A program made the position numbers and the translations under genes. The notes under the pieces are model-generated. The model was not told the origin of the DNA. It did no database searches and saw only the letters and a list, made by a program, of their open reading frames with translations. DNA of 64,000 nucleotides, from positions 642,949-706,948 of the forward strand of contig JAJEKV010000014.1 in NCBI GenBank assembly GCA_021234155.1, in the 5' to 3' direction. This DNA comes from Isoetes taiwanensis. Its lineage: Eukaryota; Streptophyta; Lycopodiopsida; Isoetales; Isoetaceae. Positions 2,949 through 35,382 of this stretch are shown here, in pieces (within the stretch, counting starts at the first letter, position 1; each line of letters begins with the position of its first letter).

Positions 2949-3990
2949 TCAACGGTTCCTGTTGTCCTCAACCAGAGTTTGCAACGTGAAGATGTGATCA
3001 ATGGTTGAGTGCCTTGTCTTAAATCCTGCCTGCATGACTGTCTGCACTTCTGTTGTCTCTGCCCCTCTTGTCAACTGCTGCTCGAGGATCCCCGCGAGGA
3101 CCTTTGCAAATACTAAGCTAATCACGAAGGTCTGGAAATTGGCTGGACAGTGCGGGTCTCTTGCCTTGTAGATTGGGACAACCCTACTAGTGGTCCACTG
3201 CGGGGGGAAACCTTCCCGCAATGCGTTGTTGAACATGACAATTAGTGAACCGGTGCCATGGTTGGTCCTGCCCACTTGAGTAACTCCGCCTGCAATGCCA
3301 TCGAGGTTTGGCAATTTTCTATTTGGCTAGACACTGCAACCCTGCGCTACCTCCGCCTCTGTGATTTCCAGCACCGGGCCCTGCTGGGGGGGAGGAGGGG
3401 AGGTAATGCTGCCCGTGCACCCTCAGGATTGTAGAGCTGCTATAGTTATTGCCTTCACTGCTCGGGGTGATGTTTCTTGTGGGCAGCACTGACCTCCTGA
3501 GCACTCTTTGCCAGAAGGTCCTGGGATGACGTTCCAGGAGGAAGAACATTTCCTGTTGATGGGCCGCAATGTACCTAGCCTTTCTAGTCTTAAGGAAAGT
3601 GCGGTATTGCTTGACCGCGTTCGAGCATAGAGCAGGATCTGTAACTTGTCGGAGCCAGCATTTGTATTCTTTGCACTCAGCATCAAACCACTGGTTACGT
3701 GGAAAGGTCGTAGCTCCTGAGGTTCGCCGGGGATGACTTCTCCCCAAAACATCTTTCGGCAGCAGCTCCGAGGACATCAATGAGTCTGCCTGCCTTCTGC
3801 TCCAGCATTGAACACTGTGAGATGCTTGCCAGGTTCTCCTTAAGCATCTGGAAATAAGTATGAGCGTGCTCATAGTCATGTATGAGCTAGGGCATGCAAG
3901 GAGATGGTGTACATGTGGGTGGAACAATATACCAAGCCAGCTGCAAGTAGAGTGGCAGGTGGTCTGAGTCCACCTCCTCATCCCTACCAT
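2949..3990 (-). pseudogene. LINE RT/linker coding remnant
   Basis: Two overlapping open stretches in different frames (3990-3319 and 3314-2949) together cover the linker after the endonuclease and the first RT blocks. The segment reading TFPRNQWFDAECKEYK is nearly the same as TFPRNRWFDDECRELK in LINE copy B, so the two are one family. The change of frame near 3316 and the loss of frame after 2949 show it is not functional. Confidence 0.8.
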
Positions 3991-4660: not shown

Positions 4661-5245
4661 TCAATTCGATGACCTCTCAGCTTCCTCTTCAGCTTGCTGC
4701 CTTTCCTGTGTTAAGTCGACGTCTATGATGTCCTCTACGTCCGACTCACGTCCTTCATCTTCCTCCTGCTCTGCTTCCCCGTACTCGAGAAGCATCTGCT
4801 CTTCTTCACCTGCTGCCATCACCATAGGCTCAATCTCTAGGGGTTGGACAGATGGTTCTTCTATCTGGATTTGGGCTCTATGGGATAGGAAAATAGCTAC
4901 AGCTGTGGTGTATGAGAAATATCTCCTCCTATTTACAGCTACTAACATATAATTAGGCAAGCGACTAGCCTTGTTTTCTAGGTACTTGTCTATCTTGGGG
5001 ATGTCTTGCAGAGCTGTACGAAGGGCCATGCTTGGAGCAAAATATCCCATGCAAGGGGGGAGTTCTACTAGAGAAGGCCTTATCTTGGCATGGAATTCAG
5101 CCATGATTTCTTGGTAATAGGGAATAGCATTGATGGTTGCATCCACATCAATCTCCTTCTGAAAGACGGCGAAGACTGAGTTGATGTCGGCCTCAGCCAC
5201 ATGAGCTGTGGCACTGTACCATCGCCTAAATGCAGATGTTGCCAT
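4661..5245 (-). CDS. Unknown protein with acidic C-terminal tail, H3-like locus partner
   Basis: A single uninterrupted frame of 194 codons, starting MATSAFRRWYSATAHVAEAD at 5245 and stopping with TGA at 4661. Residues 1-135 look globular, with mixed hydrophobic and aromatic content. Residues about 135-194 are strongly acidic (EEEQMLLEYGEAEQEEDEG, then DVEDIIDVDLTQ), a composition known from histone chaperones and other chromatin proteins; EDIIDVD also looks like a SUMO-interacting motif. No signal peptide or membrane segment is visible. It has a TATA box about 115 bp upstream and a leader that resembles that of the H3-like gene at 7994 (both contain a GGCGATTTT stretch), and the same hairpin repeats lie further upstream. 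Shared promoters suggest joint expression with the H3-like gene. I do not recognise a family and assign no function. Confidence 0.6.
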   Translation of the reverse strand: MATSAFRRWYSATAHVAEADINSVFAVFQKEIDVDATINAIPYYQEIMAEFHAKIRPSLVELPPCMGYFAPSMALRTALQDIPKIDKYLENKASRLPNYMLVAVNRRRYFSYTTAVAIFLSHRAQIQIEEPSVQPLEIEPMVMAAGEEEQMLLEYGEAEQEEDEGRESDVEDIIDVDLTQERQQAEEEAERSSN

Positions 5246-5355
5246 GATACTAAGCCTGCTGGGGATATCAAACAGACGAAGAAGAACCTTTGGGAGCTAG
5301 AAAATCGCCTTGGAGTGAGGAGCAAAGGGGTAGGGTGCAAATGAGGGTTGTGGTC

Positions 5356-5365
5356 CTATTTATAG
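5356..5365 (-). promoter_or_regulatory. TATA box of acidic-tail gene
   Basis: The minus strand reads CTATAAATAG, identical to the box at 8107-8098 and at almost the same distance from its ATG (about 111 bp against 104 bp). Both boxes lie just downstream of a TTTTAGGGTTTGG stretch. Confidence 0.75.
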
Positions 5366-5538
5366 ACAAAACCCTAATTTTGGAAAATTTTAGGGTTTGG
5401 GGAATATCTATCATTCTAAGATGCTGCTATGCAAATCATAGGCAAAGTAAATTAAAGAGTGCATGCTAAGGATCCTAATGCAATAATTTTCATCTAATTT
5501 GGAGAAAGTTGAGGCAAGTTAGGTCAGATTTGGTCTGA

Positions 5539-5610
5539 CCACTCACACAGTGCGCGAGAGGTCATTCCAAAATTCTCGGATTGGCTCCTGGCGCACTCTG
5601 TGAGGGGTGG
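5539..5610. repeat. Hairpin repeat unit 1 (upstream of acidic-tail gene)
   Basis: One of four copies of a ~72-bp imperfect palindrome. The left arm starts CCACTCACACAGTGCGCGAG, the right arm is GCGCACTCTGTGAGGGGTGG, and an inner stem pairs TCATTCC with GGATTGG around AAAATTCTC. It lies about 175 bp upstream of the TATA box. Confidence 0.85.
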
Positions 5611-5742
5611 GGCTCTATTTGGGTCAAGGATGACTCAATTTTTGCAATCTAAGGGTGAAATCCTACTTATCTCGATGAGTTAGGTCGGATTGCATGCTTA
5701 CTTTCTATATTTGGCCAAGTCTTGGCAAAGATCAGTGGTCGA

Positions 5743-5814
5743 CCACTCACACAGTGCGCGAGAGGCTAATCCAAAATTCTCGGATTGGCTTCTGGCGCAC
5801 TCTGTGAGGGGTGG
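5743..5814. repeat. Hairpin repeat unit 2 (upstream of acidic-tail gene)
   Basis: Same palindrome as at 5539, starting 204 bp further on. The spacers between copies also share short words, so the repeating unit is about 200 bp with the hairpin as its conserved core. Confidence 0.85.
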
Positions 5815-5957
5815 GGTCAAAAACACTGAGTTTTGGTCCAAATTTAGTAATTCCAAGTGCAAATATCATTAGTACAACCTCATTACTTACAATCTTACAC
5901 TTTAACATGATCAAAACATAAATTTGTGTTTACAAAACGTTATATGTTTACAATAAA

Positions 5958-6260
5958 CTAGCAATCTTCTTTCTTAATAAATCTGGCTAGTTTCATGTCC
6001 CTAGGCATACAAGTTACTCTTTTATCATGTAGAGCACATGCTAGAGAGTCTTCAAAGTGTTGTACTAGCCTCTGCTCCGCTGCCTCCTGGTGTGCGAGTA
6101 ACATGTCATCTGTTACTCTCTTCGTGTTGTCAAACTCCTGCAAAATTTCGCGGGTCAGTCTCGTGAAGGCGGCTCGTGGAATCAACAACCCGTAGCTCCT
6201 CTGAAAATGGCGGATCTCCCGAGCAGCTCTCGCGAAGTATGAATCTACCTTTCTCTTCAT
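5958..6260 (-). CDS. H3-type histone-fold segment of the H3-like gene
   Basis: An intact 100-codon frame from the Met at 6260 to TAG at 5958; the same frame is open upstream to about 6375 and adds a KKP motif just before this Met, where H3 has its own KKP. Recognisable H3 blocks in order: AREIRHFQRSYGLLI (alpha-N and start of alpha-1), FTRLTREILQEF, LLAHQEAAEQRLVQHFED (alpha-2), KRVTCMPRDMKLARFI (loop 2 and alpha-3). Loop 1 has the same length as canonical H3, so it lacks the longer loop typical of centromeric CENH3. Identity to H3 is about 40-50 percent by eye. The damage seen further upstream is absent here, which may mean recent decay or separate use of this segment. Confidence 0.8.
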   Translation of the reverse strand: MKRKVDSYFARAAREIRHFQRSYGLLIPRAAFTRLTREILQEFDNTKRVTDDMLLAHQEAAEQRLVQHFEDSLACALHDKRVTCMPRDMKLARFIKKEDC

Positions 6261-6940
6261 TGGCTTTTTGGGGGTGCTGGTCTCTCTAGGGGCGGCTTCA
6301 AGGTGTTCTTCTTCGATAGCCTGCCTCCCTCCACGTAGGTCACCTTGTGCTCCTCGTAGTACTTCGAGTACTCCTCATACATTTTCATGTATTGGTTGTA
6401 CTCCTTGAGCTTCTTCCTGTACTCTTGCTCGTGCTTGAGTACATAGGATTCCCTTGCTGGCTTGGGCTTCTTAGAATCTGCCGTTGGCTTGGGCTATTTA
6501 GGGTAGGGTGGTGCTGCTGCTGCCGACTCCTCCTCTTCGGCGTCGACATTTGAAGGTCCCGAGCCTTCAGCTGGGCGGGGAACCCTTGTCTCCTCATTTG
6601 ACTCAGTGTCAGAGGGCGAAGAGGGCAGCTTGTCGGGCTCCCGCTCCGTTATGGTAACCCCTTTTGCCGGTGTCGATTTCATCTTTCGCCGGGCTTGCGC
6701 TCCAGCTTCTCTTCCTTCCTCTTACTCTTTGTTTCTCTCTTCTCCTTCCCCCTCTTCTCCATCTCCTTTAGTCTCTGCACCATTTTCTCTGTCATTTCTT
6801 CATCTTCGTCTTCTTCGTTCTGGCCCCCATCACCCTAGCTCTCAGGGTTCTCTTGCAGGCTCCTCTATATGTTGGGCGTGCTCCTCCTCCTCTTGGTGTT
6901 CCTGATCCTCCTCTTGGACATCAGGGTTCGCGTTCGGATC

Positions 6941-6948
6941 TTGCTCTC
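6941..6948. repeat. Left target-site duplication of the hAT-like insertion
   Basis: TTGCTCTC, repeated exactly at 7880-7887 on the other side of the insertion. Confidence 0.75.
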
Positions 6949-7879
6949 GGTGTTGTTTCGCACGTGCCGTATTTTACGTTTACGCACGTCCGTACCTTCC
7001 TCCGCGATTACTATCACGTACTATACCTATAAGTTGACGGTCAAATTAATCCCTTGTTTTATTAATGCCAGTACTTAGCATTATTAATGCATGCGATGCG
7101 TATGATACGTATTTTATGTAAAAAAAATCTTTCAAATGACATTAGACCAATACAATTGATAAAATTATACATTAGGAAAAATACATTATTATATATTATA
7201 GAATAGGTGTAAAAAAGACATTAGGAGGTTTTAGACATTAGGGAAATTATGGAATTTTAAAAAGAAAAAAAAAGCACATAATCTTCTTGCAAATAAAAAC
7301 CCAAAACCCCCGCGTTTTCCCCCTCTTTCTTCTTACCCTGGCTGTTGAATCGAAATGGAAATGGAGATGCAGACCCACCTTTCTCCTTGTTTTGTCATGG
7401 TAGGAGGCAAACCTTCTCCTTAATACTTTAATAGCTTGCATTCATGCCGGGGAAAGAAATACTGAGGTCAGGTGGTTAATAGCCGGATGCAACAAATGAG
7501 CAACAATTACTTGAATTTATTTGTCTGTGGGTGTAGATTGCAGACTAGAATATATAACTCTTAAATAGACATATTTTGGATTGAAAAATTTAAGAAATAC
7601 TTAATTTTCTAAAGTAATATATTCTGGTTCATTATTTAAAACTTGAAGTTCTTCATACTAGTTGTTATTGCAACTTTTTCAAGTGCAATACAAGAAATAA
7701 TAGTTCGAAAAATTACAGAAAGTACTTAACGTATAGTACGTAAAGTACGTATTTAATAAGTACTTTATAATTCCAAAAAACGTATTTAAAGTACTTTTTA
7801 AATGAAAGGTATGCATACGGTATTAATACGTTACGTACGTATAATACTCGTACCGTACTAAACGTACCTGACAACACTG
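6949..7879. mobile_element. hAT-like non-autonomous DNA element inside the H3-like gene
   Basis: A 931-bp insertion bounded by an 8-bp duplication (TTGCTCTC). Its right end read inward is CAGTGTTGTCAGGTACG and its left end GGTGTTGTTTCGCACG, matching the CAGTGTTG type of terminus known from hAT elements. Both subterminal zones are packed with ACGT/GTAC words (about 6960-7060 and 7725-7870). No transposase frame was found. Removing the element and one duplication restores a continuous Glu/Gln-rich frame of the host gene across the site, which supports the boundaries. Confidence 0.75.
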
Positions 7880-8097
7880 TTGCTCTCTCTCGGCTCGCTC
7901 CTGAGCCTCCCTGGCCTTTTGTTGAGCAGCCAACACTGGCGCTGACGAAATTGTCGGGCACTACCATTCAAGCAGTTTGTTTGCTGCGAGCCATGTTTTG
8001 AAATAGCTTGATCGCCTTCCGGGCGCCTAAAAATCGCCTTTTTGGATGGAGGGCAGCTAACTGGAGAAGGGAAGTGAAAATGAGGAACCCTAATGGT

Positions 8098-8107
8098 CTA
8101 TTTATAG
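8098..8107 (-). promoter_or_regulatory. TATA box of H3-like gene
   Basis: The minus strand reads CTATAAATAG, about 104 bp upstream of the ATG at 7994. The leader between them contains GGCGATTTTTAGGCG, similar to the leader of the gene at 5245. Confidence 0.75.
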
Positions 8108-8215
8108 GTCTGGGGATTTTAGGGTTTGGACCTGCAATTTCATGTTGTACAATTCTGCAAGGTATTAGTGTATGTAGGATAAATACATTAGGTTTGTTTA
8201 GGCAAAAAGTGTCCA

Positions 8216-8285
8216 CCACTCGCACAGTGCGCGAGAGGCCATTCCAAAAATCTCGGATTGGCCCTGGGCGCACTCTGTGAGGGGT
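8216..8285. repeat. Hairpin repeat unit 3 (upstream of H3-like gene)
   Basis: Third copy of the palindrome seen at 5539, here with GGCCATTCC pairing with GGATTGGCC in the inner stem. It is about 110 bp upstream of the TATA box. Confidence 0.85.
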
Positions 8286-8427
8286 CACCCCTTTTTTACT
8301 CTAATTTTCAATTTATAAGGAGTTTCTTAGTGTTATAACATGCAAATATAGCTAAAATTGAAGGATTAAGCTATCCTGCACCATCAAATTACATAATTAT
8401 GCATCTATCTAGGTCAACATGGGTCCA

Positions 8428-8497
8428 CCACTCACACAGTGCGCGAGAGGCCATTGCAAAAATCTCGGATTGGCCCTGGGCGCACTCTGTGAGGGGT
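8428..8497. repeat. Hairpin repeat unit 4 (upstream of H3-like gene)
   Basis: Fourth copy, starting 212 bp after unit 3. It is closest to unit 3 in sequence, while units 1 and 2 resemble each other most, suggesting each pair arose or was homogenised locally. Confidence 0.85.
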
Positions 8498-8698
8498 CAC
8501 ACCTTTTTGGCCATAATTTTGCAGGGTTTTGCTAAAAATTCTTACTAACTTAGCATTATTCTACTTGCTGCACTAGAGATTGGAAAAAATTTCCCAATTT
8601 TTTGAGGTTCATGTTTGGGTGGTTATTCCCAAGACTAGAAGTCTACTGTTAGTCCTAACAGGGAATGGTCAGTGCTCGATCTTGGTCTACCAAGATCA

Positions 8699-8711
8699 TG
8701 CTCTGATACCA
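8699..8711 (-). other. Primer binding site (tRNA-iMet type)
   Basis: The minus strand reads TGGTATCAGAGCA, the usual plant retrotransposon complement of the initiator tRNA-Met 3' end. It is one base from the LTR end at 8713, which shows that the internal region of this element lies to the left, on the minus strand. Confidence 0.8.
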
Positions 8712-8712
8712 C

Positions 8713-10357
8713 TGTGATGTCCCCTACTTCCTCTACGATGCTCCCATCGTATCAGAAGGCAAAGTTCATCCCCCTGACAGCCAAACTGGCAGGGGCTATC
8801 CACCTGTCACCAATCCCAAGAGATGGGCCAGCACGGAAGATTGGATGGGTCATTTGCCCCGTCTTCCTTCGGGTCGACCTAGCTGCGAAAGTGCAAATAA
8901 ACATGAGCACATAACATCAATACATCAATAAAGTCACCCCAAAGGGTGAATACATCACAATATAACAAGAGCAACATCATCAACATCAGCAATCAAAGGG
9001 GATCCTACCCAGGGCTCAGACTCATGGGGGATCGATTGATGGCTTGGGCCTCCAGAAGTCAATGCAGACCGAATTCATGGCAAATAGATTGGGCTGGCAT
9101 AAGAACATGGCTGTTGGGTAGTCCATTCCATCCGTCCCTCCCGTCAGGGAAGATGCCCTCCGGACCGCGCAAGGTGGTCGCCTATTACGCGGCTCACTGG
9201 GACTCTTTTGATATCTGCTTTTTCCTCTTCCGCTTAGCAAAGCCAGCCCCCTGAGTGCACACTTTGCAGAGTAGGTTGAAAAGTATTGGGACCGGACTAT
9301 AGCCTGCCGGGTGCATAGCCAAGAGGGCTACTGCTGGGTTGCATCTCCCCAGCCCCGATGAGGCAGGAGGAGAGTAACCTCCCCTCCAGAGGCATGCATG
9401 CCCATCACAGGCGGCTAGAGGGCCACTGCCCTTATTCGACTTGAACCCCATTGAAGGTGACGCATCACCCAAGAGGTGTCGAGCTCATGCCTTGCCCACA
9501 CGCAGTGGCAAACCATTAAGCCTAGCCCACTGAGATCCCTGGTAGGCTTTACACACCAGAGGGATCAATCTGTGATGGGACAAGTCCCCCTTATCCCTCG
9601 GTCTAGCCCCGCCACCCACAACCAGGCGGGCTCCTATGCACGGGCCATATTAATTGGGAATTAATGAGGCTATCTAGGATCATCTGCTACGGAGGCTTTT
9701 AGGGTCTCTATCCCCCTTCCCAATACATAAGAGAGCACAGAGTGGAATCATCATCATCATAAAGAACTGAAATGTATAATATCTAACCTATCTACCTAAA
9801 CATCCAGAGTTAGGTTCCTTTGTTAGAGCTTGTGACCTCGGAATCTATAAGGCCTCTAAGGCTGAACTAACATGCTAAACCAACTCATTGCCAGACTAAA
9901 ATGCGGCATTGCACAACAGAATGACCATTTACCTGATCCCTGACTCGCTCCTCCTTTTCGGAATGCGTCCATACCTTCGTTCAGGCCGAAGGCGGCTGCT
10001 GCTGGAAGATTTGTTGTGCAAATGCAGCTTTTCGGAGCCTGGCAATGTGAATTAGGGTCTTGGCTTGGCCAGAATGATCCAAGGAAACCCTAATTGCGAA
10101 AAGGAGAAAGGTTTAGGGTTTAAGGAAAGCCCTTATATGGGGACTTTTAAGGTTAGGTTAACATTGGCCAAATGGGGTTTTTCCATTTGGCAATGGGGGT
10201 TTATAGTTGTATATGTTTATTAAACATGCACAACATACGAGGTTGCCCCCTAGGTGCAACCCTTTACGGTTCGCCCGTACTTGTCCTGATGACATGTATG
10301 TGTGACGTGGCAGTATAATATACGTATTTGGATCGTATATTATACTAGAACGTCACA
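8713..10357 (-). mobile_element. 5' LTR of a minus-strand retrotransposon (TGTGA family)
   Basis: A 1645-bp LTR read right to left: it starts TGTGACGT at 10357 and ends ACATCACA at 8713. It is collinear with the LTR at 33573-35330 in opposite orientation, apart from a MITE present only there. A primer site follows at once, so this is a 5' LTR and not a solo LTR. No gag or pol of this element is visible further left; instead the hairpin repeats and the H3-like/acidic-tail genes follow, and no second LTR is found before the left edge. The element is therefore truncated, very long, or replaced inside. Confidence 0.85.
10301..10357. repeat. 57-bp near-palindrome at LTR start
   Basis: TGTGACGT and AGTATAATATACG in one arm are mirrored in the other, so the first 57 bp of the LTR can form a long hairpin. 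The same structure is at 33573-33629. Confidence 0.85.
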
Positions 10358-10885
10358 CAAACTTAGCAAAATGTCAAATGAAATAATAGATATAGAGACT
10401 CTTGCTACAATGGTCTATATCAATTTCATTACAAAGTTAAGCCTGTCGAAATTCAATGATATAGACCAATACTTTAACCACAAAGTCTATCACAACATTT
10501 ATCTTCTATTAACTGTACATCCGACAGCCCAAGCTCTGATTGATGGGAATCTTCAATCAGCAACCTGTATCAACCCGATGAACCCATCTGTCTATTCATT
10601 TTATTGTTATACTCATTGCTCCGGCTATTAAGCCAAACCAAATGCTCCATATCCATTTTTGGTTTGAACTATTATAGAACACCATGTATATCTTTATCCT
10701 AATAATGCCCTGAATATCTTCGGCCCTTTTTATTTCATATAGATTAAATATAACTCTTAACCCAACCATATAACCTAGGTCTACTGTTGAGACCATATAT
10801 ACTGATAACTTCATATACATGTTTTCTTCAACCACATGCAGTATCTATAAGCCCATTACTTAGATGCATTCTTTTGTGTATACAT
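10358..10885. other. No gene seen
   Basis: AT-rich sequence with a small inverted repeat (GGTCTATATC near 10412 and GATATAGACC near 10458). It may be the 5' part of the degenerate LTR that is recognisable from about 10885. Confidence 0.4.
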
Positions 10886-12010
10886 TGATTCTACATGATA
10901 TAATCTTATCAGTATGAATAGTTGGATGATTAGATTCTATTTTATGCTTTATTTGAGATTATGATGGATGTTTTGTATGTGATTGTTCTCTCTTTCTGTT
11001 TCTCCTGTGTGTATGGGTTAAAGGGAGGTAAAGACTTAAAAGGCTACCTAGGAATAGAGATGCTCTTAGTTAGAAACCCTTAAATCCCATTAAATGCGGC
11101 CTGTCCACAAGAGCCCTCCTGGTTGTCGATGATATGATATGGCTGAGCACCAAACAAGAATCATAGTGGTGAAGTGGGGGTGGGACCTTACCTAACGTGG
11201 CTACAAGGCTCCCTATTGCGGCTGAATCTATAGTCGGTCATTGCGTATGGGCCGAGTTTGGGTCTGACACCTCCTGGGTCACATGATATGTGCCGATAAG
11301 GACGTCCTGGGCTCGATGTGCGCACTACGGTGGCCTATGGATTTTGAGGGTTTCAATCCGGTACGAATGCGTGGTTGCCAATGGGGCCACGATCCTCTAG
11401 CCACCCATGGAAGCACCATGCTCTGGGAAGGATTCCTCCTTCCCTGCCTCATTGGACTGGGGAGATGTAACTCATAGGGTGAATCCATGAGATTGCGTAT
11501 ATGGAAGGCTACAACCATGCCATAGCATGACTCAACCTATCTGCAAAGTGTGCACAGAAGGGGCAGATGAAGTGGACTACCCTAGCCATTGTTCTATACC
11601 AGCCAACGCCATTGCCACTATTCTTGTCTGTTGGTATTCGGAGGCCCTGCCTGTCAGTTGACACCATTGAATCTGAACCAAAGATTAGACCCTTCATTTA
11701 TGATGCATTTGTTATGTTTCCTACTATTACGATGTGTTGTGCTATTGATGGATGTCCCATCCTTAAAGGTGGCATATTATTTTATATATTATGTGCTTGG
11801 TGCTAACTTTTATGTACGCTTCTGCTATATAGGATTCCCATAGAAGGCATGGGGCGAATGACACCTCCATGTCCTTCACTCGGACACTTGGCCATCACAA
11901 GTGGTCCGAGGCAGACGGGGGGGTCCTTCTGTGGTGATGTGGTTGCCATGGGAGGGGAATTTCCAGTATTTGCACGATGGGAGCATCGTATAGGTTCAGG
12001 GAGCGTCACA
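10885..12010 (+). mobile_element. Degenerate solo LTR, TGTGA family
   Basis: Collinear with the LTR at 46329-47917 (shared words include GAGATTATGATGGATG, TAAATCCCATTA.ATGCGGCCTGT, TATAGTCGGTCA, AACGTCCTGGGCTCG-like text and CCATGGGAGGGGAATTTCC) and, more distantly, with those at 8713 and 33573. It ends GAGCATCGTATAGG...GCGTCACA at 12010. No primer site follows, so it is probably a solo or fragmentary LTR. The 5' limit is uncertain. Confidence 0.7.
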
Positions 12011-12700
12011 ATACTCACCTTCCAAACTTTGCCTACACATTGAACATGGGTCCACAACGACTTAAAGCCTACTGGAAGGAGAAGCGAGCCAGTTATTCTT
12101 GTGAAAAAACATGGGTGTACATAGGTACAGAACAATGAAAGTCACATTCGCCTGAAGCAATATCTAGATACATGCTGCCTGGTAAGGTTTGGGATGCTAA
12201 TGCGTTAGAGCTAGTAAAGACATCACAATACAAAAATCAGATTAATCGTGAAGAAGCGCAGGACGATTGTGTGTATTTCACAAGAGTACACCGCCTCAGA
12301 ATTGAAACAAGTAGATGGGCTCAGGAGGAGTGAGAAACACAGGGTATAACAATGTTGCCAAAGGAGATATTTAAGAGGAATGCCACACTATTCAGAACTA
12401 CCCAACATTTGTGGCTATTCAGATACGATATATCTGGTGGATGGACAGTAGTTGGCTAATGCGTTCTTTATGGATGCATCCTATAGGTCTTTTGGTCTCA
12501 ATGGACGATAAAATTCAATCCAATCCAATTCGTAATCCATGATGATGTCAAAAGTCATCATCATAAATGTCATGTAATGCAAATTATATAATAGCTCATT
12601 ACAAGACATTTAATGGAATGGCAAGGGGGAGAGGTTTCAGGGTGTGGACAAGCCCGACATTGAAGTAAAAATGGTGCAATATCGTCCCCCCTTGCCCCCC
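12011..12700. other. No gene seen
   Basis: No coding frame or known element was recognised. It ends in a C-rich run near 12690-12710 next to the AAAT repeat. Confidence 0.4.
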
Positions 12701-12708
12701 CCCACCCC

Positions 12709-12753
12709 AAAAAAATAAAATAAAATAAATAAATAAATAAATAAATAAATAAA
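12709..12753. repeat. (AAAT)n microsatellite
   Basis: About ten AAAT/AAATA units in a row. Confidence 0.9.
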
Positions 12754-12754
12754 G

Positions 12755-13122
12755 ATTCCCCGAAATTCGCCATGATCCCATTAGATTATTTGTAATTCCC
12801 TCGAGATTCACTGTGACTCCTCAAGGTTCTCCCAAGATACCCTGAGATTTTCTCATAACTCCTTTGATTTCCCAATGTTTCCTTTAATCCCACCAAGATT
12901 CCCCTATATTTTTGGAGATTCATCTAAATTTCCTCAATATTCCTTGAGATTCCTTCACTCCTCAAGATTCCCTTTAGACTTTCTAGTTTCTCTGCGAGAT
13001 TCCCCTAGAGATATCCTCAAGATTTTGTGGGATCCCCTAAGGTTATTTGCTATTTTCTGAAGATTCCATGAGATTTTCTTAAATTCCCTTAAGATTTCTT
13101 TAAATTCCTTTAGATTTCCTAG
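12755..13122. repeat. Degenerate AGATTCC tandem array, left part
   Basis: More than fifteen loose copies of an AAGATTCCCTT-like word spaced about 15-25 bp. The order is irregular and no unit is exact, so this is an old, eroded minisatellite. A similar block reappears at 14165-14370. Confidence 0.75.
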
Positions 13123-14164
13123 AGGTGGACCTACACATGGAACACATTCATTTCAATGTTCTTGAGAAGAAGAGTCGAAAGTGCAAGCCGCGCTCCATTC
13201 TGACCTATGCATTGCAAGTTACGATCCTTGAAGTTTGCTTGAAAAAGAAAAGGGTGTAAGAAAGAAACAACATATAATGACTTCTTATCTTATATACATG
13301 TGTTATTCATTGGGCAATCAAATCCAAAATTGAACAAGGTGCTACGCACAGAGGGTTGCCCTCCACTTTCTTGAGGGTGAAGTGGCCTAAATATAATCGT
13401 GAAGTCATGTTTTTACAATCTATATTTAAATTAAACTAGACCTCTACCATATTCTTGCAATCAGTTTGTAATTCTGCTACATTCATGTACAAGCCTATCC
13501 ACAAGTACCCATCGATCAAATTGTGCATGTAACTGAATAGTTTAGTATTCTCGTCTCCGTGGCATCGCATCCCCGTTCTTGATCAACAACTGGATTGGCC
13601 ATCTCAGATAAATAAATTGTGTCGGTTAGCCAATTTCCACACCAGCTACCCAGCAACAATGGTGACTACCAGTTTACATGTAAGGGTAGGTTTGGAGCAA
13701 TCACTAGCATATCCTAGGTATATTCCAGCATATACCTAGGATATGCCACAAACCCACATAAGTGAGGGTTTGCCCCCCTAGGGGCAACACAAAAAGCACA
13801 TCAATATCTAAAAATGCAGTTATTCTTAGCGTCAAATTATCTTTATTGCTTTTAATCAATGATCAATTCCTGGTGAAGGATGTCCCCGAGCGTGTGGGTT
13901 GTCTTTGACTCAGATAAGTCGAATTCAATGTTCCCTCTAACTAGTAGCATAAGTGTAGTTGGTGAACAACCTATAGGAAATGCATCCATGCGCACTTGCA
14001 ATCTACTCAAATTGTGAATGTTAAGTCGTTCAAGAATTGTTATATTCCCATTAAGTGTACAACATGCAGAACACAAGTCTTGACTGTTAAAAAGGTTAGA
14101 ACCTTCAACTTATGGTTCTGTATTGCCAACAATCTTGGGTGCACCATTTTAGATTGTTCAAAAG
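13123..14164. other. About 1 kb separating the two AGATTCC blocks; no gene seen
   Basis: No coding frame is convincing. It includes one copy of a dispersed palindromic repeat (13665-13795). It may be a mobile element that split the AGATTCC array, but terminal repeats or a target duplication were not identified. Confidence 0.35.
13665..13795 (+). repeat. Dispersed repeat with double palindrome, copy 1
   Basis: Contains AGCATATCCTAGGTATAT mirrored by ATATACCTAGGATATGC, then GAGGGTTTGCCCCCCTAGGG with its own GCCCC..GGGGC palindrome. The same arrangement is at 18235-18362 in the same orientation. Confidence 0.75.
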
Positions 14165-14370: not shown

Positions 14371-14385
14371 AGATAGATCCGCCAA

Positions 14386-14483
14386 GTCAAAGCAACATCT
14401 GATACATTTCGGGCAGATTTTGTATTTTTTTATAGTCAAAGCAACATCTGATACATTTCGGGCAGATTTTGTATTTTTTTATA
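14386..14483. repeat. Exact 49-bp tandem duplication
   Basis: Two identical 49-bp units (14386-14434 and 14435-14483), each starting GTCAAAGCAACATCTGATAC. Perfect identity points to a recent event. Confidence 0.95.
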
Positions 14484-16020: not shown

Positions 16021-16024
16021 AATG

Positions 16025-23340: not shown

Positions 23341-23894
23341 ACATGTCGTGCTTTAATAATTTTTAAGGAATGTGGGTGCAAACTTGCTCATTCTTTGCTC
23401 AAGGAAGCTTAGATGGATTGATTGAGCAAGGGGAGTCACGTGGTTGTGGCTCCTCCTCAATATAAATATTAACTAGGAAAATACAAAAAATGTTCCTCAA
23501 AAATATTTTTTGACACTTGGCGTGCATGCACTGGAGCATCAAAGAATCTCGAAGAATAGAATCAAAGTGTATGCATTATATATGGTTTGAATAAAACATT
23601 AAAACCATAGCTAACGATGTCTTAAGAAATTAATGTTGTATGATGATAGTACATATCTCGGAAGCAGATGAATTGGTTCTTTGTTGTCAATCTATCGTAG
23701 CAGAATAGAAACATGTCCAGCATAATGGCTTGGTAACCGTTAAGAAGAAACGGCTTGAACTTCAGCAAATCCTGGGTAATGCTATAAGTTAAGGGCCACA
23801 TCTGTTCATTGTTGAAAGAGGGGCTGAGAACCACAAGGACAGCTCCACCACTTGGGCTAGGCATCACAAGCTTAACCCCGATAATCATCTAAGG
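23341..23894. other. No gene seen
   Basis: Short open frame on minus (23888-23622) without motifs. Confidence 0.35.
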
Positions 23895-24753
23895 AGAAGC
23901 GTACCTAAGACTCCACGACATCAAGAACCTTCCAGAGTGCAGGGACAGGGGCTACAGGATAGACGAGCTCCTACATCTCCTACGTCAACAACCGGACCTT
24001 GATGACTTCATCGACCGAGAGACACATGACTTCTCCATCAGCATAAGGGAGGCCCGGACGTACACTGGCCAATCATCGACGGACATAGAAGCCTACACCG
24101 GCATCAGGAAGATGATGGCTCAGCAGGAGTTGCAGAAGAGGAGTTCTTAGTGATCCAGGAGTGGATGGGAATCAGAGGGAAATCAACGAGTGCGCTCCTA
24201 CCCAGCACCTCAGCAGCAACACCAGCCGAAGGCAGCATTAGCTTAGCATCTTCTATGTTCAACGACTACAGGGAAATGGTAGAAGTACCGGTGGATGAAT
24301 ACTCCGGAAGACACAGGGCTGCAATCAGATCCAGAGAGGAGGCAGGGCATGATAAGGCGCTCAGGTTCTACCTACCTTTGCTCACTGATGGAAGGATAGC
24401 GGTTATACACCACCAATTCAGCCCACATGGGGAAGAAGGAGTCTTTATGCTTGTTGCCCTCTCAGGATTCGGAAGACATGCTCGCATGGCCCCAAACATC
24501 GATCATGTCATCCTTGTCAAGAGGACAATAGCTCTAAGCATCTTCGACTTCGCGGTCCCTTATAGGCGACAGGGCAGGTTGGCAGTCACCGCAGCCTATA
24601 CATCATAGAGAAGGGTCGAAGACTTGGTGACCACACTCCAAGGAGGCACGGCCACCAACATCTTGAGGAACTTAGGGCGAACGGTCGGCACAGTCCAAGT
24701 GAAGAAATTCTTGGAGGACAACCCAGATTATATAAGAAGATTCCAAGAATAGA
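23895..24753 (+). pseudogene. Unidentified decayed ORF upstream of chromovirus gag
   Basis: Coding-like sequence in two frames. The first (about 23900-24150) includes RDRGYRIDELLHLL and DDFIDRETHDFSISIREA. The second runs 24150-24605, ends at a TAG, and continues in the same frame past it (RRVEDLVTTLQGG to IRRFQE) to a stop at 24753. Together this is about 285 residues. A segment with GRIAVIHHQFSPHGEEGV followed by hydrophobic beta-like stretches is loosely reminiscent of 30K-type movement proteins, but this is weak. It lies just upstream of the gag of the Ty3 element, in the same direction and with similar decay, so it may be an extra ORF of that element or part of another retroelement. Confidence 0.35.
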
Positions 24754-24914: not shown

Positions 24915-26173
24915 GTGCAATCTAATGTGTATGCAGCTAGAGTAGCCAGGAATGTGGAACAGGATAGACAACTTCTGGAAGAACAAACACCCGCAAGACA
25001 ATTCCAGCCAAGGAACCTGTACCAAGAGTTCGAGGCACCAACCCCAGAAGAAGAAATATCCCAGTTAAGGTCGGACATCCACGAAATAAGAGTCTTGCTG
25101 GCAGGAACGACAGCAATGGAACCAGACTAGAATGTCCAACTACCGGAAACACTAGCGGGCCGAGCAGTCAAACCAAAAAAGAGAAGCCGGATAAGGAGAT
25201 CACCCAGCACGGATTCCTCCAACTCTAGCTCCGACTTCGACTCTGAGTCTGATGAGCAGGAGAATGAACGACAGGATTGCCGGGAGGGTCCCAACCGTGA
25301 TAGGGGCAGGGCAGAAGCCGACTACCAGAAAGTCGACTCAACACTGAGCAATGTGTGGAACGCTAGGAAGTTGGAACAGTTCTCAAGAGATAGCAGGTCT
25401 GGAATGGAGGCCAAGGCATGGTTGGATGAAATGAGGGAGTATGGGAATGCTTATAGCATGAAGGATAAGGACAAGGGCAGAGTAGCAACAGCCAACCTTA
25501 AGGGAGTAGCCAGGATTTGGTGGAAAGGCTATGCCAAAGCCCATGGGTTAAGCAGAGATAGCTGCAGATTCAAGAAGTTTGCCAAAGCATTTAAGCGTCA
25601 TTATTGTGCCAAGGAAACACAAGTGTCATATGATGCAGCAGTTCTGCAGGCAGCAGGGCAATAAGACAGTCCAGAAGTACACTGAGGAGTTCATGAGGCT
25701 GAGGCTCTATGTGCTGAAATTGAGCAAAAGGCATGCAATAGAGGGGTACATTGAAGGCTTGAACGAGGAGATTAGGAAGCTGGTGAGAGCAATAAACCCC
25801 AAGACAGTGTCAGAAGCAGAGTCTAAAGCAGTGAACTTGCAAGGAACGGGACCCCAAGAGAGCGGAACGAGGCAACAGTACTATCAAGACAAGGGGAAGG
25901 CTGCAGAAAGCTACAACCCAAGAGCAACAAGCCTAGCAGCTAGCAGACCTCAATATAACGCAAATTATGGGAAGCAAGGCAACGCAAACTCTGGCAAGTA
26001 GGACAAGAAGCAAGTCAGCTTCAAGGAGCAAGGAGGTGGTTCCAACTACTCAAAGGCAGTTAAACAGTTCTTACAGTCCATCCCCAAGGAGAAGAGGCAG
26101 GAATGTATTGAAAAGCAGTTGTGCTTCAGGTGCTTCCAGCCAGGACATCGTACACATAATTGCCCATTTGTGA
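24915..26173 (+). pseudogene. Chromovirus gag
   Basis: Starts with a helical, Gln/Glu-rich part (about 24915-25130), an in-frame TAG, a Ser/Asp-rich linker, then the capsid-like core (MEAKAWLDEMREYGNAY, IWWKGYAKAHG, KFAKAFKRHYC; 25353-25640). A frameshift near 25660 leads to VQKYTEEFMRLRLYV, the conserved end of the retrotransposon gag domain, then a second in-frame stop at 25999. The CCHC knuckle C-F-R-C-F-Q-P-G-H-R-T-H-N-C is at about 26119-26165. Not functional. Confidence 0.8.
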
Positions 26174-26623
26174 TGAATGCGGCGTTAGCGGAGCTAGGAT
26201 GGGAGACACCCACGGATATCGACGAAGAAGATGCTCCCGACTACATCCAGGGTGAGTGCCACATCTTTGCTGCTATTGATTCTGAGAATGCTGAGAGTCA
26301 GTACCAAGTCATTTCGACGACTGGGAAGGCCCAAGCCAAGTCCTTCATAGTGTTGATAGACACAGGGAGTACCCACAATTTTGCTTTGCCCAGGATGGTA
26401 TAGACGTTGAAGCTGAAGCCTTTGAAGTCCAAGCCTAGGCCGGTTGTGTTGGCAAGTGGGCCAATCCGACACACAGCAGGGAAAAGGATCAACTTCAACA
26501 TAGACTTGCCAGGTATCAATGTTGGAATGGGAGCAGAAGTGATGAACATCGGCAAGTACGACTTGATCATAGGCATGGAATACCTTGGACCGGCTGGAGC
26601 CGTGATTGATCAAGGTCATTGAG
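26119..26623 (+). pseudogene. Chromovirus zinc knuckle and aspartic protease
   Basis: The knuckle is followed by an acidic linker and the protease active site VLIDTGSTHNFA at about 26350-26385 (catalytic Asp in DTGS). A TAG at 26401 breaks the frame; the second protease half ends in the flap-distal YDLIIGMEYLG near 26560-26590. A frameshift then leads into the RT. Confidence 0.8.
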
Positions 26624-27452
26624 ATAACAGGTAAAGAAGTCATCTCAATCATGCAATGCATGCCTAGTAAGAAGTTACTTAAATGCATAAGAAAGGAGCA
26701 AGTGGCCTATGTCTTTAAACTCAAAGTTGACGAGCAAGAGATAGCCGAAGAGAAAGAGGCCAAAGCATTGAGCAAGCTCCCAAATCCTATAGCAAAGTTG
26801 GTAAAGGAATTCCATGATTTGTTCCCAGATGAGATTAAGCAACTTCCACCTTACAGAGGAGTCGAGTGTGAAATAGCACTTGAGCCAGGAACTAAACCAA
26901 CAAGCAAGGCACCCTACAGGATATCAACCCAGGAGTTGACAGAATTGAAGAAGCAATTGCAGGAGTTGCTAGACCTAGGGTTTATAAGACCTAGTGTCTC
27001 TCGATTTGGAGCGCCAATACTCTTCGTGAAGAAGAAGGATGGAAGTATTAGAATGTGCATTGATTATCGTCAATTGAACAAGCACACCATCAAGAACAAG
27101 TATACTCTACCTCGATCAGATGATTTGATGGATCAATTGCAAGGAACAAAGGCCTTTTACAAGATAGATTTGAGATCAGGTTATCACCAGATCAGAATCA
27201 AGGAAGAGGACATCCATAAGTCTGCATTCAGTACGAGATATGGGCACTATGAGTTCACAGTGATGCCGTTTGGATTGTCCAATGCTCCAGCAACCTTCAT
27301 GAAGCTCATGAATGATGTTTTCCGCGAGTTCCTAGATGCTTTCATCGTAGTTTTCTTTGATGACATTCTAGTCTACAGCAAATCCTTAGAGGAGCATGTC
27401 CAACACTTGAGAAAAGTACTTGAAAAGTTGAGGAGGTATCAGCTTTTTGCGA
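26606..27452 (+). pseudogene. Chromovirus reverse transcriptase, N-terminal 2/3
   Basis: Clear Ty3 RT order: [54 protein letters not shown] (first catalytic Asp), [13 protein letters not shown], and [13 protein letters not shown] (catalytic Asp pair; Phe where most elements have Tyr-Ile/Val). The frame is interrupted after RRYQLFAKL by the insertion at 27458; the continuation [15 protein letters not shown] starts at 30620. Confidence 0.9.
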
Positions 27453-27748
27453 AGCTAACAAGATTGCGTATTAAACGGGAGCAAATCATTGAAACGGGAG
27501 CAAAAGGAATATTCCTCAAAGATTCCCTTTTTTTCCCAAAAAAAGAGCTAAAATGAGGTAAAAAATTTATTTTGGGTATAAATTTGCATTTTGACCCCCC
27601 CAAAATCACTCATTTTTTTGTGCAAAGAGAAAATTGACTATGTCAAAGTGACAGTTTTCCTAACAGTTAGAATTTACCTGAAGTGTGTTTTTAGACAAAA
27701 CCACTAATTTAAGTGTACGTCCTACACAACATTTTGTTAGCTTGGATT

Positions 27749-30615: not shown

Positions 30616-32790
30616 AGCTATCCAAGTGTCACTTCGCAACAGAAAGAGTGGAGTACTTGGGGCATGTGATCACGGCAGAAGGGATCTCCACCGACCCTGC
30701 AAAGATTGAAGTGGTAATTGATTGGCCGGCACCAAAGAACACCCATGAAGTGAGGAGCTTCCTCGGCTTAGCAGGGTATTATAGGAAGTTCGTCAAGAAC
30801 TTTGCAAAGGTGGCAACTCCATTGACGGACCTCACCAAAGCAAGAAAGATAAAAGATTGGGCAAGTCATTGGCAAAGGAAAGCCCATGCAGCATTTGAGA
30901 CGTTGAAGGAAGCTTTAACGACTGCGCCAGTCTTAGTATTGCCAGATCCAAGCAAGGATAAGCTTGTAGCGACAGACGCTAGTAGGATAGCAACAGGTGC
31001 AGTCCTCATGCATGAGGAAAGGGTAGTCGCATATGACTCCAAGAAGATGAATGACGCAGAGCAACGCTACCCGACTCATGGCCAAGAGCTTTTGGCCATT
31101 GTGAAGGCCTTGAGAATCTGGAGACACTACTTGTTGGGAAGAAAGTTCCAACTAGATACAGATCACCAAAGCCTCCAGTACATCTTCACGCAACCACTCC
31201 TGAATCTGAGGCAAAGGAGGTGGATGGGGTTTCTTGAAGAGTATGACTTCGAGATAGTCTACAAGCCAGGCAAGCTAAATGTAGTCGCAGATGCGCTCTT
31301 CAGAAAGCCATTGAAGACAAGGATGCATTGCAATGTCATATCGACTCTCACAAGTGAGTATGGCAAGAGAATTGAGGAGACGTTGCCAACAGATGGCGAC
31401 TTTAAAGAAGCTTGGGCAAGCCTTTGTAAGGAGGCCATGACAGATAAGGAAAGGGAGACCTTCAGGCACTATAAGAAGGAGGGTAACTTGCTATACCACA
31501 AGAATAAGTTGTGTGTACCTGAATCTTCGGGAGTGATGAAGTTAATCCTCCACGATACACACAATAGTCCCATAGCAGGGCATGCAGGGTTTATGAAGAC
31601 ATATTTCAAGATCAGAAGCAGTTACTTCTGGCCCGGTATGAAGAAGCAGATAGCAAGATACATTCGAGAGTGCCAGTTGTGCCAGCAGACAAAGGCAGAG
31701 CAACTCCGAATCCCAGGTGCCTTGGAGCCAGTGCCAGTGCCAAATGCAAAATGGAAAGTCATAAGTATGGACTTTATTACAGGACTCCCAAGGACAGCAA
31801 GAGGCAAGGATGCCTTGATGGTGGTGGTAGATAAGTTGTTCAAGATGGCACATTTCGTGCCGTGTAGGACAACAGACACAGCATTGGATACTGCCATCCT
31901 ATTCACTAAGGATATTTTTAGACTCCACGGTATGCCGAGGGAGATAATCTCGGATAGAGACTCTAAATTTATGAGTGCATTCTGGCAGGATTTGTTTACT
32001 ACCATTCAGACGAAGCTTTCTATGAGCATAGCATATCACCCGCAGACGAATGGTCAGGCGGAGTGAACCAACGGGATGCTAAGGAGCTATGTTTGGAACA
32101 AACAGTCTAAGTGGAATGATTTCATCCACATAGTGGAGTTCGCCTACAACAGTACCAAGCAGGAGTCATCCCATATGTCTGCTTTCATGATTAATTATGG
32201 GTATCAGTGTCTTACCCCAGATACATGGCACAATCCAGTGTCAAAAGTGGAAGTCTCCCAACAGATGTCGGATATGCAGCAGTTAGTGGAGGAGGTAAGA
32301 GGATATCTTCTAGCAGCGAGAAGTAGGCAGAAAAGCATAGCCGATAAACACAGGACTGTAAGGGAATTTCAGGTGGGAGACAATGTATGGTTGAAGATCA
32401 AAGTGAAGCACGCCAAGCTCCGCATCGGCAATTGCAAGAAGCTTGCTCCAAGATGGGCTGGGCCATTCAGGATAACCAAAAGAGTAGGTAGCTAATCCTA
32501 CAAGTTGGACCTGCCAGCACACCTCAAAATCCATAGGGTCTTCCATGTAAGTCTCCTAAAGAGGCACACTCCTAATCCAGAGGAAGTATTGGAGACAACT
32601 GAGTTATTGGAAATGACGGACGACTAGCTTGAAATCGTCCCAGAGGTTCTTCTTGACAGGGCCTATAAGAAGACAAGAAGATCCCAATTTCTCTAATACC
32701 TAGTGAAATGGACGCATTTACCTGTGGAAGACGCTACGTGGGTACTACAATTAGATTTGGAGAAGTAGTACCCCCAATTCATGGAGCAAT
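30616..32790 (+). pseudogene. Chromovirus RT end, RNase H, integrase and chromodomain
   Basis: After the insertion: [18 protein letters not shown] and [12 protein letters not shown] (RT thumb/connection), RNase H with [32 protein letters not shown] and VADAL. Integrase: HHCC finger ([13 protein letters not shown]... CQLCQQTK), core Asp in MDFITGLP, Asp in [10 protein letters not shown], Glu in PQTNGQAE, followed at once by TGA at 32064 that breaks the frame. The frame resumes with WNDFIHIVEFAYN and a GPFRI block to a TAG at 32493, then KLDLPAHLKIHRVFHVSLLK. A C-terminal chromodomain (PEVLLDRAYKK, YLVKWTHLPVEDATWV; about 32640-32760) contains two more stops. The chromodomain would direct integration to heterochromatin in live relatives. 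Confidence 0.9.
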
Positions 32791-33555
32791 GCAAGGGTCG
32801 GCTCGTCACCGAAGTGGTCGGCTCGTCACCGAATCGATAGGAGAGTGGAAGGTAGATTAAAAAGTCTACTTCCATCCCACGGAAGTAGACGACCTTGAGA
32901 GATAAGAGGTCATTCAGGCATGCATTAATAGGAAAGCACCTCTAGTCAATGCCTACCACGGGAAGGACGTCATCCTTCACGCCCAAATACGGGAAGGACG
33001 CCACTCTTCACGCCAAAGGCAACTAAAGGTGTAGGCATGGGTGATCATCCTAGGCATGATAGGGCGCTGTCTCCACGGCCAAGATGGAAGAAACATAATC
33101 TTCCTACGCCGGGAGATTAGTCTTGCATCCATGTAAATTGTAATTAATGGGTGGTTCCCTAACAACCAACCTTATAATAATTAAATGTATACTGACGTAG
33201 TGTTGGACCTAGGCCAATAGGAGAGTTTAGCGGCAGGAAGGTCGCACTGCAAAGACTTGGCAACACATATTTTGTCATAATGTGTTGTAAGGAAACGATA
33301 TGGAACCTTAATTAGAGAATTTTGGAACTATGTTAATAATAATGGTATAAGCCATAAAGTTTTGTGAATAATAGACGATAAAGCAAGAGGATGAAAGAAC
33401 CTCTTATCATAGTATAATATTAAACAAGGATGTGTTATGATAAATTAAAATATTAACTTGGGGTAATTATGTTGTAAAATTATCTGTATCAAATGTAATT
33501 GCAGGATACGCAGGTTTCCAAGGTGGGGAGACGCGTGATGCTGAGGACAACATCA
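32791..33555 (+). other. 3' non-coding region of chromovirus
   Basis: No ORF. Contains a short direct duplication of GGTCGGCTCGTCACCGAA (32797-32830) and repeated GGGAAGGACG...CTTCACGCC text (32960-33020). Confidence 0.6.
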
Positions 33556-33572: not shown

Positions 33573-33629
33573 TGTGACGTTCCAGTATAATATACGATCC
33601 AAATACGTATATTATACTACCACGTCACA
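33573..33629. repeat. 57-bp near-palindrome at LTR start
   Basis: TGTGACGTTCCAGTATAATA mirrored by TATTATACTACCACGTCACA around a short AT centre. Same as at 10301-10357 and, diverged, at 46329-46383. Confidence 0.85.
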
Positions 33630-33718
33630 CGTACATGTCATCAGGACAAGTACGGGCGAAACGTAAAGGGTTGCACCTAGGGGGCAACCTCGTATGTTGT
33701 GTATGTTTAATAAACATA

Positions 33719-33967
33719 TCCCGGGGATACCACTTAGTGTATAAGGGATACGCCATGTGCGAGGAAGGGGTCATAAAAAACCCCTTCGTATACGCTTTTT
33801 TTAAGGTCTAAAAAACCCCTTTCCGTATGAAATACATCACTAGAGATTGGATTTTTTAAGGTCTAAAGAACCCCTTCCCGTACATATTCGTACGCTTTAG
33901 GTTAAAAAAAACCCCTTATCGTCCACTCACATGGTATATACGGCCTACACTATGTGAATCCCCCGGG
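33719..33967. mobile_element. 249-bp MITE inside the LTR
   Basis: Absent from the LTR copy at 8713-10357, where the flanks are continuous. Ends are TCCCGGGGATACCACTTAGT and, read inward from the right, CCCGGGGGATTCACATAGTG; flanked by the 7-bp duplication AAACATA (33712-33718 and 33968-33974). The inside has two copies of AAGGTCTAAARAACCCCTT. Confidence 0.85.
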
Positions 33968-35382
33968 AAACATATACAACTATGAACCCCTATTGCCAAA
34001 TGGCAAAACCCCATTTGGCCAATGTTAACCTAACCCTAAAAGTCCCCATATAAGGGCTTTTCTTAAACCCTAAACCTTTCTCCTTTTCGCAATTAGGGTT
34101 TCCTTGGGTCATTCCGGCCAAGCCAAGACCCTAGTTCGCATTGCCAGGCTCTGAAAAGCTGCATTTGCACAACAGATCTTCTAGCAGCAGCCGCCTTCGG
34201 CCTGAACGAAGGCATGGACGCATTCCGAGGAGGAGGAGCGAGTCAGGGATCAGGTAAATGGTCATTCTATTGTGCAATGCCGCATTTTAGTCCGGCAATG
34301 AGTTGGTTTAGCATGTTAGTTCAGCCTTAGAGGCCTTATAGATTCCAAGATCACAAGCTCTAACAAAGGAACCTAACTCTGGATGTTTAGGTAGATAGGT
34401 TAGATGTTATTCTACATTTCAGTTCTTTATGATGATGGTGATTCCACTCTGTGCTCTCTTATGTATTGGGAAGGGGGGTGGAGACCCTGTAGCAGATGAT
34501 CCTAGATAGCCTCATTAATTCCCAATTAATGCGGCCTGTGCACAGGAGCCCGCCTGATTGTGGGTGGCGGGGCTAGACCGAGGGATAAGGGGGGTTTGTC
34601 CCATCACAGATTGATCCCTTTGGTGTGTAAAGCCTACCAGGGATCTCAGTGGGCTAGGCTTAATGGTTTGCCACTGCGTGTGGGCAAGGCATGAGCTTGA
34701 CACCTCTTGGGTGATGCGTCACCTTCAATGGGGTTCAAGTCGAATAAGGGCAGTGGCCCTCTAGCCGCCTGTGATGGGCATGCATGCCTCTGGAGGGGAG
34801 GTGACTCTCCTCCTGCCTCATCGGAGCTGGGGAGATGCAACTCAGCAGTAGCCCTCTTGGCTATGCACCCGGCAGGCTATAATCCGGTCCCAATACTTTT
34901 CAAATGTGCACGGGAGGGGCGAATGGAGTGGACTACCCAATAGCCATGTTCTTATGCCAGCCCAATCCATTTGCCATGAATTCGGTCTGCATTGACTTCT
35001 GGACGCCCAAACCGTCAGTCGATCCCCCATGAGTCTGAGATCTGGGTAGGATCCCCTTTGGTTGCTAATGTTGATGATGTTGCTCTTGTTATATTGTGAT
35101 GTATTCACCCTTTGGGGTGACTTTATTGATGTATTGATATTATGTGCTCATGTTTATTCGTGCTTCCGCAGCTAGGTCAACCCGAAGGAAGAACCCATCC
35201 ACTCTTCCGTGCTGGCCCATCTCTTGGGATTAGTGTCAGGTGGATGGCCCCTGCCAGTTTGGCTATCAGGGGGATGAACTCCACCTTCTGATACGATGGG
35301 AGCATCGTAGAGGAAGTAGGGGACGTCATAGTTTGCAAGTGTGTCTGATAATAATAATAATCTCTATAGCTGTATTCTTCAT

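Follow-up and report, generated by a model that had tools for sequence, protein, structure and literature searches.

A histone H3 with an interrupted tail as the first ORF of a chromovirus-type LTR retrotransposon lineage in Isoetes taiwanensis, with a possible anti-silencing role

The window and its rearranged element

The window, by which the whole analysed stretch of 64,000 nucleotides is meant (Isoetes taiwanensis, assembly GCA_021234155.1, contig JAJEKV010000014.1, positions 642,949 to 706,948), carries on its minus strand a decayed ORF made up of the parts of a histone H3. The ATG at 7994 opens the H3 tail start MARSKQTA, immediately followed by a TGA, and the stretch 5958-6374 matches the Pfam Histone domain at 1.1e-20. 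Against solved H3 structures the fold scored 2e-20, with H3.3/H3 nearest, and its loop 1 aligned without gaps, in agreement with the original prediction, which had described a loop of ordinary H3 length and not of the CENH3 kind. Start and fold are separated by coding-like sequence rich in Glu, Lys and Tyr, which contains stops and frame changes. An insertion of 931 bp, flanked by an 8-bp target duplication (GAGAGCAA, copies at 6941-6948 and 7880-7887), interrupts it further; the length of the duplication and the inverted ends, judged by eye, suggest that the insertion is hAT-like. The central claim made for this locus, that of a charged insertion dividing an H3, is borne out by the MARSKQTA start and the Pfam match of the fold. 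The copy had also been described as broken by nonsense codons, frame changes and a transposon; it is dead, with stops and frame changes, and the transposon is the 931-bp insertion. DNA identity to the open ORF1 of a related copy of the same genome (L050, see below) was 85-86% over most of the ORF and 76% in one stretch.

The ORF (hereafter ORF1) is part of one whole, rearranged element of a divergent family (C), apparently cut by an inversion of about 19 kb. The features are as follows, in the order of the element.

10358..10362, minus strand: target site duplication (TSD) GTTTG beside the 5' LTR
8713..10357, minus strand: 5' LTR of family C, starting TGTGACG and ending ..ATCACA
8700..8711, minus strand: primer-binding site (PBS) TGGTATCAGAGC, initiator tRNA-Met type
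5958..7994, minus strand: ORF1 (H3 tail start, charged insert, H3 fold), decayed
7971..7994, minus strand: H3 tail start MARSKQTA, with TGA next at 7968-7970; relatives have MARTKQTAR-M/I
6941..7887, minus strand: putative hAT-like insertion within ORF1, duplications included (insertion proper 6949-7879)
5967..6281, minus strand: H3 histone fold, from Pfam and solved-structure matches
4683..5296, minus strand: ORF2, first part, with 87% DNA identity to the ORF2 of L050; homology ends at the inversion break at 4683
23818..24690, plus strand: ORF2, second part, resuming 16 bases past the minus-strand end in L050 coordinates
25131..26610, plus strand: gag, zinc knuckle and protease region
26606..27553, plus strand: pol, first part (reverse transcriptase)
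30618..32834, plus strand: pol, second part (end of reverse transcriptase, RNase H, integrase); the alignment extends to the chromodomain region
33573..35330, plus strand: 3' LTR, followed by the TSD GTTTG at 35331-35335

The PBS was taken to be a match to the initiator Met tRNA. GTTTG is present at both outer LTR ends, and the two LTRs are 95.3% identical over 1,499 aligned bases (K80 0.050). The 5' half of the element (5' LTR, ORF1 and the beginning of ORF2) lies on the minus strand and the 3' half (the rest of ORF2, gag, pol and 3' LTR) on the plus strand. The breakpoints map to L050 positions 7877 and 7894, 16 bases apart, and a single inversion of about 19 kb from 4683 to 23818 would explain the split layout, with misassembly as the alternative. 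The second part of pol is 75% identical over 744 residues to the pol of a complete element described below (E34), its chromodomain being placed by alignment only. The interval 27554-30617 within pol looks like an insertion.

Four copies of a repeat of about 106 bp with inverted ends were seen at 5526-5631, 5730-5835, 8203-8308 and 8415-8520. They sit in the leader and in the spacer between ORF1 and ORF2, with similar places in L050, and may represent either a hairpin in the RNA or a small repeat that inserted there. By eye, LINE-like reverse transcriptase fragments adjoin the inversion break (2952-3990, minus strand), Copia-like gag and pol ORFs lie just past the 3' LTR (35460-37436, plus strand), and a long ORF resembling a chlorophyll a/b-binding protein, probably a host gene, is found at 57796-58617 (minus strand).

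Related copies, families and element class

Whether the start and the fold belong to separate genes was checked among related copies. Sixteen of 40 start matches paired with one of 40 fold matches on the same strand and in the right order (none in the wrong order), with a start-to-fold spacing of 698-759 bp, compared with 1,600 bp in the window copy. A recognisable start was present at the expected place in 18 of 20 copies picked by their fold alone, the exceptions being L063 and L075. Since related copies pair both parts in order and on the same strand, start and fold are read as one gene. The original prediction had advised a search for live relatives; copies with the same order were found in this genome, Isoetes being a lycophyte, one of the groups it had named. 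Among 20 copies chosen by their start, L050 alone was fully open in one frame, running 385 aa from MARTKQTA through the fold; L056 is open over 378 aa but has an internal frame change. The insert, earlier put at about 340 residues, is charged as proposed; its size comes to about 280 residues in L050. With the full-length ORF1 as query, ordinary H3s dominated the matches. At the L050 locus (L057 and L058), a related element has left a solo LTR with TSD GAAAG between ORF1 and ORF2, at about 5432-6990 in gene orientation.

The genome (1,658,258,908 bases in 1,110 contigs) was searched with a degenerate exact motif for CAIHAKRVT, which gave 1,224 matches (627 forward, 597 reverse), with 0 for the reversed-pattern control; the matches were not inspected singly, and the motif misses the family C folds that were read. 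Of 150 scored Pfam matches, 30 were fetched and the other 120 stayed unread. Canonical H3 accounted for 15 of these 30, so nearly all 1,224 motif matches should be element copies, and the genome probably holds well over a thousand related copies. Open frames of at least 400 aa were present in 36 of the 150 scored matches. Larger first-look counts (8,704, 5,727, 822 and 362) represent loose candidates, not copies. The H3 fold was found directly upstream in 20 of 20 sampled ORF2 copies (the best-scoring 20 of 90).

Readable ORF1 starts fall into four families (A, B, C and D); in a fifth group, E, the start is unreadable. Family C begins MARTKQTAR-M/I-VVPDD, followed by a charged low-complexity insert and the fold. 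Family A begins MPRFKLTVDL (Met-Met in two copies, MSRF in one), family B METPKQV or MEEVKGV, and family D MANTKST, MANTKNT, MANIKSA or MAITKSA. Common to A, B and D are a novel domain of about 200 residues, a charged linker, a short H3-like stretch (HP-STGGK, HP-GTAGK or P-VVGAK) and a nearly canonical core; the family C insert is without this domain. Of six D and E loci that were read, the four that belong to D have ORF1 open from the Met to the fold. The insert domain of the A type had no Pfam match; a search of 5.8 billion proteins gave 640 candidates, none of them a homologue at E<=1e-3, and a profile of the A, B and D domains had no match in the PDB at E<=1.

ORF2 likewise had no Pfam match, and its predicted structure (pLDDT 41) was set aside. 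Among 7,998 scored candidates, ORF2 had two homologues only, P0121 and P0122, on ENA contigs of 2,953 and 3,374 bp, both with ORF2 open. P0121 matched this genome at 62% identity at best, so it is probably from another species. Both contigs are likely to come from another plant, perhaps as transcripts, and the lineage may thus be wider than Isoetes.

In copies read with their flanks, the H3 ORF stands between the LTR and PBS (TGGTATCAGAGC or near) on one side and ORF2 on the other, with gag and pol after it where these are kept; the gene order is LTR, PBS, ORF1 (the first ORF after the leader), ORF2, gag, pol. Two elements of about 13.2 kb were read end to end. In E33 (C1018), the LTRs are 95.0% identical and the TSD GGAAA stands at each side; its PBS is altered, ORF2 and pol are broken, and a chromodomain was recognised by eye. 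In E34 (C1056), the LTRs are 92.7% identical, the TSDs match at four of five bases, the PBS is exact and the pol frame is open over 948 aa. Pfam matches in E34 comprise Ty3_capsid/Retrotrans_gag, RT, RNase H, H2C2, rve and Chromo (PF00385, 3e-9), with the chromodomain at the end of pol, and the elements are therefore assigned to the chromoviruses. Paired LTRs, TSDs and a PBS are thus found in E33 (PBS altered), E34 and the window, purine tracts precede the 3' LTRs by eye, and the order gag-PR-RT-RH-INT is kept, also in the window copy, which is split by inversion and insertions. The fold has an H3-type core. ORF1 almost certainly belongs to a lineage of LTR retrotransposons in Isoetes taiwanensis that are Ty3/Gypsy elements of the chromovirus type; the split H3 described earlier stands, as a gene of the element and not a histone gene of the host.

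A Gypsy element of the Ogre/Tat type with an extra 5' ORF was considered and rejected on the chromodomain of E34, the OTA lineage being described as without one in the available text of PMC6317226.

Histone residues, selection and possible roles of the protein

The residue at the K9 place was sought in 39 loci of families A, B, D and their kin, of which 4 were missed and 35 read, 4 of these without a readable position 9. Pro was found in 30 of the 31 readable copies; the other (L028) has Leu and looks frame-shifted. In family C, three of 38 starts were frame-shifted before position 9, and the remaining 35 have Met (22), Ile (11) or Val (2). Lys at the K9 place was present in 0 readable copies of any family read. 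Of 35 copies read at the K36 place, 34 have Arg and one (L019) has Lys, and the stretch that bears K27 is missing, by eye. Canonical H3 or H3.3 was therefore rejected as an identity, since the uninterrupted tail of about 37 residues (ARTKQTARKSTGGK..K27..K36) is absent, a long insert is present and K9 and K36 are replaced. The K4 place is Lys in all 38 family C starts and in five aligned A, B and D starts; in two family A copies (L025 and L030) the frame starts Met-Met, which would move this Lys by one. From these starts we infer that those of A, B and D derive from the H3 tail, and with the K4-place Lys in A, B, C and D, a description as H3 split after about residue 8 suits the whole lineage. 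The suggestion that such a tail would hold Thr3/Lys4-type marks far from the nucleosome fits this layout, with a K4-place Lys in every readable start.

We propose that the element lineage captured a host H3 and that its tail was interrupted, after about residue 8, by an insertion. ORF1 would be translated from the genomic RNA as its first ORF, and the protein would pair with host H4 and enter nucleosomes, perhaps those of the element's own chromatin, where it would display its N-terminal domain. Such a histone could not be methylated at K9 or K27, and the element would thereby be less subject to heterochromatic silencing. In family C, the ARTKQTAR-Met/Ile end might in addition act as a bait of the H3K9M kind. 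The whole statement, a captured, tail-split host H3 kept as a retrotransposon ORF1 with an anti-silencing role, is given a probability of about 0.5. The anti-silencing mechanism by itself, predicted from sequence, is tentative, with the odds leaning against it. The K9, K27 and K36 changes of A, B and D probably go back to one ancestral event and hence are not independent evidence of function. The fuller scheme is doubtful; in it, unmethylatable K9, K27 and K36, a K4 end on a long arm and an H3K9M/I bait in one branch would be joined by an integrase chromodomain, so that the element would both target and disarm heterochromatin. By eye, the chromodomain appears to be without the first residue of the aromatic cage, so binding of K9-methyl H3 by it should not be assumed.

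The core residues bear on another role. Families A, B and D were compared with the host H3.3-like gene L015, using lists of DNA-contact and H3-H3' residues that we assume to be appropriate, and excluding family E, whose row mixed the frame-shifted L082 with L083. DNA contacts are kept at 15-16 of 17 places and H3-H3' contacts at 8 of 8; residues 86 and 89 differ from L015 in each of the three families and residue 87 in A and D, and T107A and I124L are common to all three. The patch formed by H3 residues 86, 87 and 89 steers the choice of histone chaperone. ORF1 might therefore serve as a chromatin tether or hitch-hiker, its fold allowing the cDNA-protein complex to use histone chaperones or to bind new nucleosomes at integration, with no anti-silencing. 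The substitutions in this patch, the mostly kept contacts and the linkage to gag-pol elements, with a chromodomain in E34 pol, all agree with this reading; it does not account, however, for the retention of the K4 Lys alongside replacement of K9 and K36 in almost every readable copy, and we consider it rather unlikely. The same conserved core weighs against a role as a virion or cDNA packaging protein, in which the fold would compact the nucleic acid of the element in particles in the manner of a nucleocapsid. The position of ORF1 first after the leader, its pairing with ORF2 in the 20 sampled copies and the charged inserts would suit such a protein, but an almost unchanged core with all eight H3-H3' contacts in A, B and D goes beyond what packaging by itself would call for, and the element already has gag with a zinc knuckle; this role is improbable.

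The fold of family C is only 46-49% identical to the folds of A and B, and it may no longer form nucleosomes.

Selection was estimated as dN/dS by the Nei-Gojobori method in samples that include dead copies. For the fold, values were 0.062 in family D (16 copies chosen by top ORF2 scores), 0.013 in family B (4 copies) and 0.050 in family A (14 copies), the last leaning low because its loci are the best-scoring Pfam matches. Family C, sampled by start or, for L062-L081, by fold, gave 0.119 for the fold (17 of 20 start-chosen copies reach it, and three had no fold codons). Fifteen host H3 genes gave 0.022. The control with shifted frames covered A, C, D and host H3; in shifted frames, the same A, C and D alignments gave 1.1-4.1. 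Low values in frame against values above 1 in shifted frames show purifying selection, by which the H3 fold, and the insert of family C, have been maintained in the element lineages. In family C, constraint on the insert (0.17) and on the tail (0.20) is similar, so that the tail does not stand out.

These values largely refute passenger capture, in which a functionless host H3 fragment would have been amplified by the transposon, as in fungal hAT elements. Such an origin has a precedent in fungi (PMC6710886, in the text available) and would agree with the high copy number and the decay of many copies, yet a passenger should not combine in-frame dN/dS of 0.05-0.12 (A, C and D) with values above 1 in shifted frames, a layout alike in A, B, C and D, and frames of at least 400 aa in 36 of 150 scored matches; we regard it as very improbable.

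In the phylogenetic tree, A, B, D and E form one clade (97/88) beside host H3, and family C stands on its own long branch (100/100). The nearest host gene to A, B, D and E is the H3.3-like L015 (92/73), with the bootstrap unsettled, which hints weakly at descent from an H3.3-like host gene. CENH3, in which loop 1 is longer than in H3, was rejected on the ungapped loop 1 of the window copy, the tree being built without CENH3 sequences. A host CENH3 or other H3 variant gene family, suggested by an H3 fold with an unusual tail, is refuted for the copies examined by the normal length of loop 1 in the window, by the position of the copies read with flanks, which have LTR and PBS ahead of them and ORF2 and gag behind (TSDs being present in E33, E34 and the window), and by the single clade of A, B, D and E, and can practically be dismissed.

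Comparison with known systems

The elements share LTRs, a 5-bp TSD, the PBS TGGTATCAGAGC (exact in E34 and the window) and the order gag-PR-RT-RH-INT-chromodomain with chromoviruses that carry extra ORFs. They differ in that two further ORFs, of which the first has an H3 fold, separate the PBS from gag. Additional ORFs are frequent among plant Gypsy elements according to the available text of PMC6317226 and PMC7264820; within the main text, supplements aside, the word histone had no match in PMC7264820 and one, concerning chromodomains, in PMC6317226. A Gypsy lineage of Phalaenopsis has likewise gained and kept a host-type gene (PMC9289625, as far as available), but this encodes an AlkB-type RNA demethylase domain and no histone, and its ORF1 is the gag-pol polyprotein.

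Mobile elements are known to multiply histones. In Dothideomycetes, hAT elements carry histone H3 in tens or hundreds of copies (PMC6710886, available text); in P. fijiensis these are mostly truncated and RIP-inactivated, and in P. tritici-repentis 23 look functional. That system is a DNA transposon for which a split tail is not described in this text, whereas in Isoetes the carrier is a retroelement and its H3 is under selection. The bracovirus histone CpBV-H4 is a mobile or viral core histone with an extended N-terminal tail which joins nucleosomes and alters expression (PMC5423620, available text); nucleosome entry is only proposed for the Isoetes protein. CpBV-H4 is an H4 of a wasp polydnavirus with an extension of 38 residues, and the present protein is an H3, is encoded by a plant retrotransposon and has some 280 or more inserted residues.

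In fission yeast, H3K9M sequesters the K9 methyltransferase and prevents normal H3 from being methylated at K9 (PMC5030085, available text). Family C resembles H3K9M histones in that 22 of its 35 readable copies have Met directly after ARTKQTAR. It differs in being natural, in having Ile (11) and Val (2) in other copies, VVPDD in place of STGGK and a long insert, and its effect is a prediction.

The available text of a review of viral histones (PMC9145170) had no match for retrotransposon or retrovirus, and a literature search of open-licence PMC papers, without supplements, preprints and subscription papers, found no histone-bearing retrotransposon. Accessory genes in mobile elements are already known; for a retrotransposon lineage that keeps a histone under selection, no report was found among open-licence PMC papers. 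If the protein enters nucleosomes, the element would encode its own histone variant, one that escapes the marks hosts use for transposon silencing, and would offer a natural test of the roles of H3 K9, K27 and K36 and of a tail arm of 300 residues. In the Isoetes genome paper, repeats with BLASTx matches to plant proteins were taken out of the repeat library (PMC8566536, available text), so elements of this kind could escape repeat annotation. Counts of histone H3 genes in Isoetes may therefore include transposon genes.
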